Positions 283 through 64,000 of a stretch of 64,000 nucleotides of DNA are shown piece by piece. The translations under genes were made by a program, and so were the position numbers. How positions within the stretch are numbered: the stretch's first letter is position 1; every line of letters starts with the position of its first letter. Source of the DNA: Datnioides undecimradiatus (taxonomy: Eukaryota; Chordata; Actinopteri; Lobotiformes; Datnioididae); assembly GCA_008933995.1 (NCBI GenBank), contig WARS01000038.1, positions 4,606,010-4,670,009 of the forward strand, in the 5' to 3' direction. Under the pieces are notes generated by a model. The model did not search any database and was not told the origin of the DNA. It saw nothing but the letters and a program-made list of their open reading frames with translations.

Positions 283-303
283 GCTGCTGTCCGTGGTGCT
301 GAA
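283..303 (-). promoter_or_regulatory. RE1/NRSE motif, candidate REST (NRSF) binding site
   Basis: Read on the minus strand the site begins TTCAGCACCACGGACAG, matching every position of the 17-base RE1 core consensus (NTYAGMRCCNNRGMSAG) and then continuing GC; only the last bases differ from the 21-base textbook element. REST is a zinc-finger repressor that silences neuronal genes in non-neuronal cells through such sites; that is family knowledge. A full match is rarely seen by chance in 64 kb. The nearest supported exon lies about 34 kb downstream, so assignment to that gene is inference; a gene left of the window is an equal possibility. Confidence 0.75.
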
Positions 304-62880: not shown

Positions 62881-63279
62881 ATTAGCTTTCCCCTCCAGTG
62901 CTGCACTAAATTTACCTGGCGTTAGTGGCGTCGGACACACAGTGCAGTCAGAGGCAATATCCATCGGTGTTTTACTTGGGAAATATGCTGTTAGCTGCAG
63001 TGCATTGAGGAGCAAATCGCTCTCATCTCATAGAAAATGAGTGTGGGTCCGAGTTAAGTCATTTTGGACAAGTTAATATTGCTGTAGCTCAGTTAAACGA
63101 GCTCTGTTGGCCTCACCAAGCTTCTTCCCTCCTAACGAATGACGCAGCTGCCATTTTTTCGGCTCTGTGTTTTAAATAAAAGGCCCGAACAGGCGCTCCT
63201 ACTGAATTCAGCCGCTCTTTCGAAGTTTGAGAAACATTTCGGTGCGAGTGGAGGAGATACAGCGAGATCCAGGAGAAGA
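62881..63279. other. Non-coding, nothing recognised
   Basis: Mixed sequence with short chance frames. Confidence 0.45.
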
Positions 63280-63325
63280 GGGAGGGAGGGAGGGAGGCAC
63301 CCAGCGGGGGGGGGAGGGAGGGGGG
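63280..63325 (+). repeat. Double G-quadruplex motif
   Basis: Four GGG runs with single-A loops at 63,280-63,296 are followed at 63,306-63,325 by runs of nine, three and six Gs. Together they form one of the most G-dense stretches of the window. Confidence 0.85.
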
Positions 63326-63570
63326 TGTGTGATATATTTCTTAAAGATTTTTTTTTTTATTTTTAGACTCTCTGCTTTCGTCTTCTCACCTCCCCTGCCA
63401 CGTGTCAGCCTGCCTCTGTGTTTGTTTCGAATTTATCTTTGATCCGTCTCCTTGTCGCTGCACCCCCGCCCCCCCTCCTACGAGGCCCTCCCGGCAGGTT
63501 GGAGATCACATATCTTCGGCCCAGCTGGCCTCCTCCCCGCCCTGGGCCAGCCAGGAGGCAGGCTGGAGGG
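63326..63570. other. T-rich then GC-rich non-coding DNA
   Basis: A T-rich run at 63,349-63,364 is followed by a C/T-rich and then GC-rich block. Frames of 89 and 117 codons are Pro/Leu-rich, overlap in different phases, and lack splice or domain support. Confidence 0.4.
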
Positions 63571-63596
63571 GGAGCTGTCCGGCTGCCAGTGCTGAA
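63571..63596 (-). promoter_or_regulatory. Expanded-spacing RE1 candidate (REST half-sites, 7-base gap)
   Basis: Plus-strand GGAGCTGTCC (9 of 10 to the left half GGCGCTGTCC) and AGTGCTGAA (8 of 9 to the right half GGTGCTGAA) are separated by seven bases instead of two. Half-site centres are therefore 16 apart rather than 11, which falls within the 16-19 range known for non-canonical REST sites. It sits 30 bases from a canonical RE1 in the same orientation. Confidence 0.5.
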
Positions 63597-63626
63597 TCCG
63601 CCCCTGCTCGCGTGGCAGCTAGCAGT

Positions 63627-63647
63627 GGCGCTGTCTGTGGTGCTGAA
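63627..63647 (-). promoter_or_regulatory. RE1/NRSE motif, candidate REST binding site
   Basis: On the minus strand it reads TTCAGCACCACAGACAG followed by CGCC. That is 20 of 21 bases of the textbook RE1 and a full match to the 17-base core consensus. It is the second canonical RE1 in the window, and by the current model it lies in the first intron about 29 kb after the exon, or else near another gene beyond the window. Confidence 0.78.
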
Positions 63648-64000
63648 ACTGAGCCTCCTCTCCCCACCTAGGAGTGGGGGAGCAGCTCAGCCTCCTGCAC
63701 CCCGGCTCTGCCTGGCCCTGTCAGTGATGACGGCAGATGGGGGGGGGGGAATGGGGGCGGAGGTTCTGTGATGCTATTTTCATGTAACTGTGCGGATGAC
63801 ATGAGCAACACCGGCGCGCACTCTCTTGTTTCTTGCACGTGGTGTGTCTTTCCCAATCGAACGATGGAGGCAAGGAGCATAGAGGGGGAGATAAAGAAGA
63901 ACGTAGGCGGGGAAGGCTTAAAGATTTGACAGGAATGCGTGACTCTGACAGGAATACAGCATTTCAAGGCAGGCAGGTGAAACGGGAAGGAAAATGTTTC
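63648..64000. other. GC-rich to mixed non-coding DNA
   Basis: A run of about ten Gs lies near 63,740. 'CTCTCCCCACCTAG' at about 63,659-63,672 looks like a splice acceptor, but the following open frame has no recognisable protein content and no clear donor. Confidence 0.4.

Follow-up and report, generated by a model that had tools for sequence, protein, structure and literature searches.

The question raised by this locus is how two differently spaced recognition sites for REST (NRSF), a canonical RE1 and an expanded RE1, would share the work of silencing when they lie side by side. Within the window, the whole stretch of 64,000 nucleotides analysed here, the two sites are placed as follows, together with a second canonical-type RE1 that was absent from the original prediction.

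283-303, minus strand: another RE1 of canonical type, 19/21 matches
63571-63596, minus strand: expanded RE1 (two half-sites and their gap, itemized in the next three lines)
63571-63580, minus strand: right half of the expanded RE1, GGACAGCTCC, 9/10 matches
63581-63587, minus strand: gap of the expanded RE1, GGCAGCC, 7 bp
63588-63596, minus strand: left half of the expanded RE1, TTCAGCACT, 8/9 matches
63597-63626: linker separating the expanded from the canonical RE1, 30 bp edge to edge
63627-63647, minus strand: canonical RE1, TTCAGCACCACAGACAGCGCC, 20/21 matches to the RE1 consensus

Read along the minus strand, the canonical RE1 comes first, followed by the linker and then the expanded RE1, so that the two sites share their orientation, with centres about 53 bp apart. 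The canonical site is a 21-bp RE1/NRSE match with its halves 2 bp apart, its sole mismatch to the consensus falling at position 12, and its 21-mer recurs at four other places among the 100 listed of the 349 RE1s found in this genome. The consensus used is identical to the 21-mer printed as the canonical NRSE in PMC3529185. The expanded site carries its halves in the canonical order with a gap of at least 7 bp, the hallmark of that class, and a half-site centre spacing of 16. Its gap of 7 nevertheless lies outside the 8 or 9 bp that repress in a human MPRA, which lowers the claim that the expanded site acts as a silencer but not the claim that it binds. The layout originally predicted, namely a left/right half-site pair with a 7-base gap and centre spacing 16, a canonical RE1 with 20 of 21 matches 30 bases away, and a common orientation within a GC-rich block, proved exact in all these respects.

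We consider that the pair probably forms a homotypic REST silencer, in which the canonical RE1 is the main site and the expanded RE1 a genuine but weaker helper, so that REST would bind at the locus, act less strongly through the 7-bp arrangement and control a putative target. The canonical site is expected to carry most of the activity and the expanded RE1 to help. As the main site, 63627-63647 would receive zinc fingers 3-8 of REST in its major groove, while on the expanded RE1 fingers 3-5 would engage the right half and fingers 7-8 the left, finger 6 being swung out over the 7-bp gap. The distance between the centres and the common orientation would place two REST molecules side by side and thereby raise the local occupancy of corepressors (CoREST, Sin3, HDACs). 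A neighbouring neural promoter would then stay closed in non-neural cells and be relieved of repression once REST declines. Contacts of fingers 3-5 with the right half and of fingers 7-8 with the left have been described, as has the flipping of finger 6 across the gap of expanded sites in molecular dynamics (PMC8096226). In zebrafish, embryos with neuron-only expression were reported to be proportionally most frequent when two NRSEs were separated by a 27-bp spacer, and four NRSE copies to suppress skin and notochord expression more, but that of the brain also (PMC3531662); the same paper, in which Bruce et al. (2004) is cited, refers to ChIP occupancy being greatest for two sites within 30 bp. 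These results with paired and multiplied NRSEs make a strong or graded silencer plausible for the present pair, which appears to add a further case to a known type of REST-site switch, predicted here from sequence. The pair also provides a natural test of the cooperation between canonical and expanded RE1s, with a layout that recurs in one genome and is portable to zebrafish reporters.

The distribution of such sites was examined in the assembly from which the window comes, 581 Mb in 497 contigs, where the window occupies C483:4606010-4670009; all genome scans used this assembly. The 349 RE1s with at most two mismatches (control 0) are accompanied by 164 canonical sites when TTCAGCAC and GGACAGCNCC are both held exact (control 0) and, with the same two half-site cores exact, by 72 half-site pairs with enlarged gaps of 3-32 (control 0). 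Gaps of 7-11 bp hold 64 of these 72 sites (4, 15, 17, 18 and 10 respectively), with none at gaps 3-6 and the other eight at gaps 12-21; a gap of 7 is thus the rarest within the band (4/64, a class of only four sites). Half-site spacing has been reported to be most often 0-1 or enlarged by 7-11 (PMC2573930), and human ChIP-nexus data gave noncanonical gaps of 7-9, with gaps of 3-6 not possible (PMC8096226); the empty 3-6 interval and the crowding at 7-11 seen here agree with the inability to span 3-6 bp that the latter paper describes. The expanded band of mouse and human is reproduced in this assembly and is visible from the bare sequence. At equal stringency, expanded RE1s constitute a large and sharply spaced class in this genome, with 64 sites at gaps 7-11 against 164 canonical ones.

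Comparison of the two classes highlighted a difference in the right half. A T in GGACAGCNCC, which gives the right half the form GGACAGCTCC, is present in 55/64 expanded sites as against 41/100 canonical sites (100 listed of the 164), and the right half at 63571-63580 has this form preferred by expanded sites. The difference persists at 54/62 versus 35/78 (p 1.8e-7) when the canonical count excludes 22 hand-picked repeat copies and the expanded count two duplicate places; the repeat copies were recognized from flanks inspected for part of the 100 canonical sites and canonical duplicates were left uncollapsed. No such right-half difference is described in the excerpts of the REST literature that we compared. 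The ninth position of the left half presents no class difference, being C in 55/64 expanded and 86/100 listed canonical sites, so that the weak conservation of the ninth C reported for human noncanonical sites (PMC8096226) is not repeated here. At the expanded site of the pair this position (within 63588-63596) is a T, the minority base found in 9/64 expanded sites, and the substitution may on that account be a weakening change of the expanded RE1. The T is found in three of the four gap-7 sites as against 6/60 at gaps 8-11 (p 0.007, on very few sites).

Close pairing of RE1s was surveyed around 96 of the 100 listed RE1s (16 exact and 84 one-mismatch matches among the 349), which fall in 95 loci. 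The survey kept both copies of the C215/C218 duplicates (99.8% alike) but excluded the four C472 places, which nearly duplicate C471. A second RE1 was scored where it lay within 110 bp, matched at least 7 bases in each half and at least 16 of 19 overall, and had a gap of 2 or of 7-11. Eleven of the 95 loci contain one, compared with 0.08 expected from first-order Markov simulations, and the orientation is the same in nine of these 11 pairs. Four of the 11 combine a canonical with an expanded RE1:

L096: expanded gap 11
L117: expanded gap 10, left half 7/9
L136: expanded gap 9, inverted orientation
63571-63647, the present pair: expanded gap 7

Gap, distance and orientation vary among these four, and no fixed composite layout is seen; their share of the close pairs indicates that the pair at 63571-63647 is real but not unique. 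Canonical/expanded pairing is thus uncommon but recurrent in this genome. Mixed canonical/expanded pairs were absent from the literature matches listed, and the letters of the two sites, searched as text, gave no match in the literature. Starting from the expanded class, 52 of whose 64 in-band places were covered as 51 loci, a second site was found at three, namely L041, L161 and the present pair. L041 (C328:6025350-6025750) contains two expanded RE1s of the same orientation with gaps of 8 and 9 and full half-site matches, 28 bp apart edge to edge, and no canonical site at threshold in its 401 bases. Another layout is seen at L044 (C471:4236500-4236900), where two canonical RE1s of the same orientation lie 7 bp apart edge to edge, a pair found also on C472.

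That the pair arose by chance, or is a copy of an RE1-bearing repeat, would be conceivable in a genome where a dispersed repeat of this kind accounts for 28/96 of the canonical places examined. Chance is nevertheless expected to supply very little: no match to the RE1 consensus with up to three mismatches occurred in 100 dinucleotide-preserving shuffles of the 64,000-nt window, reversed-pattern controls in the same genome returned 0 for both the canonical and the expanded patterns, and the i.i.d. expectation of an expanded match near the canonical site (left half at least 8, right half at least 9, any of four gaps, 500 bases either side, both strands) is 1e-5 with the composition of the window and 8e-5 with that of 63451-63750. 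A genome search with the 801 bases around the pair recovered no second copy of the locus and, besides itself, only a 54-base match to a purine-rich stretch outside the pair; nor do the flanks of the dispersed repeat match the pair locus, L023. Comparison of the pair's flanks with those of 79 canonical loci gave best scores of 29 upstream and 27 downstream, the 99th percentile of a shuffle control run for L076 alone being 30. Two matches to the pair locus were set aside as driven by the RE1 or by chance, one of 31 bases at L092, with 29 identities and about 20 columns within the RE1, and a gapped GC-rich one at L076. The tandem patterns were, as expected, absent from viral and from bacterial and archaeal contigs. 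An origin by chance or from the repeat is, on these figures, scarcely credible.

More serious is the proposal that only the canonical site works and that the expanded RE1 is a non-functional or weakened neighbour. The 7-bp gap is the rarest in the band, the T at position 9 is a minority base, and gaps other than 8-9 bp were without repression in the human MPRA (PMC9903721), yet human ChIP-nexus does include 7 among its noncanonical gaps of 7-9 (PMC8096226), and both halves of the expanded RE1 are near perfect in a position where such a match is expected at only 1e-5 to 8e-5 by the i.i.d. estimate; we regard an idle expanded site as possible, though doubtful. Conversely, the two modes might contribute about equally, giving the strong or graded two-mode silencer of the original prediction. 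Part of that proposal is supported, given that both arrangements far exceed chance, that RE1 pairs recur at 11/95 loci against 0.08 expected, four of the 11 being mixed, and that the number of NRSEs (one, two or four) affects strength in zebrafish (PMC3531662), where the NRSE pair provides a precedent. The equal share is not supported: a gap of 7 stands at the edge of the range (4/64 in this genome, and repression in the MPRA at 8-9 only), which makes an equal contribution of both modes unlikely, and the four mixed pairs, one of them inverted (L136), differ in gap, distance and orientation. We therefore judge a silencer with two equal modes to be very improbable, and retain the canonical RE1 as main site with the expanded RE1 as its weaker helper. 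A wider and rather unlikely scheme would have REST in this lineage read two site codes, the expanded class being selected, with its own right half GGACAGCTCC and gaps of up to 11 bp; genes of graded release would combine one site of each code, the gap-7 sites with T at position 9 would form a sub-mode, and a dispersed repeat would have seeded many of the strongest RE1s.

Known systems offer partial parallels. The REx2 element likewise consists of two non-identical RE1s, with a spacer of 27 bp compared with 30 here, although both of its sites are 16-bp canonical cores whereas the present pair joins a canonical to an expanded site (PMC3531662). Snap25 and Celsr3 have tandem RE1s within 1 kb and are, as here, homotypic pairs, but both of their sites are canonical and the target genes are known, while in our case one site is expanded (PMC2573930). 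The expanded NRSE of PCDH-alpha HS5-1 resembles 63571-63596 in presenting its half-sites in canonical order across an enlarged gap; that gap is 8 bp, in contrast to the 7 bp of the present site, which in addition adjoins a canonical RE1 (PMC8096226).

The surroundings of the pair were searched for a promoter and a target gene, and the following features define the local and regional context.

63172-63178, plus strand: TTAAATA, a TATA-like motif some 400 bases ahead of the pair
63463-63768 (approximate limits): GC-rich block around the pair
147917-147937 in window coordinates (4417-4437 of L017): third strong RE1 of the region

The CpG observed/expected ratio is 0.54 over 63152-63850, so that the GC-rich block falls short of the usual cut-off for a CpG island, and four GGGCGG/CCGCCC hexamers occur in 63466-63760. 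The TTAAATA at 63172-63178 may be part of a putative promoter, and the pair would then fall within the 5' transcribed region. Codon bias was scanned over 253.5 kb around the window and splice sites over 203.5 kb, in both cases with human frequencies and with short exons liable to escape; weak segments but no convincing exon emerged, and seven stretches (nine weak-segment contexts) were inspected by eye. Pfam searches with 10 of the 57 ORFs returned nothing at E 0.1, Rfam nothing at gathering scores (window and 14 flank loci, 140 kb), and ARAGORN, run with the bacterial code, no tRNA. Thus, no target gene was found near the pair from exons or from Pfam and Rfam matches. The same 253.5 kb contain three RE1s with at most two mismatches (at 283, 63627 and 147917), compared with 0.15 expected, which suggests a single REST-controlled locus; scanned as in the pair survey, the region yields one weak site besides these and the pair. 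The RE1s at 283-303 and 147917-147937 lie on either side of the pair, within some 250 kb of sequence that gave no convincing exon.

The repeat considered above is at least about 200 bp long with the RE1 in its middle (13 copies aligned). At a flank E of 1e-3 its copies make up 28/96 of the examined canonical places (20 of L058-L136, five of L001-L008, and L033, L034 and L039), rising to 30/96 at 1e-2 with the addition of L064 and L111, whereas its flanks were found at none of the 40 expanded loci L137-L176. Repeat-bearing loci include L001, L002, L003, L004, L008 and L033-L040. RE1s in fish repeats were absent from the literature matches listed. Searching with one flank gave 117 candidates, of which 40 copies were scored; in 20 of the 40, the RE1 slot matches at 19/21 in five, 17-18 in five and 16 or fewer in ten, a sample that leans towards loss because five known RE1 holders were left out of it. 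With these five included, 10/25 copies keep at least 19 matches, and the slot counts across the 25 give no sign of selection maintaining repeat-borne RE1s. The counts indicate that the repeat is a source of RE1s and that decay has since overtaken many of them; such repeat-borne sites bear on the spread of the REST network.
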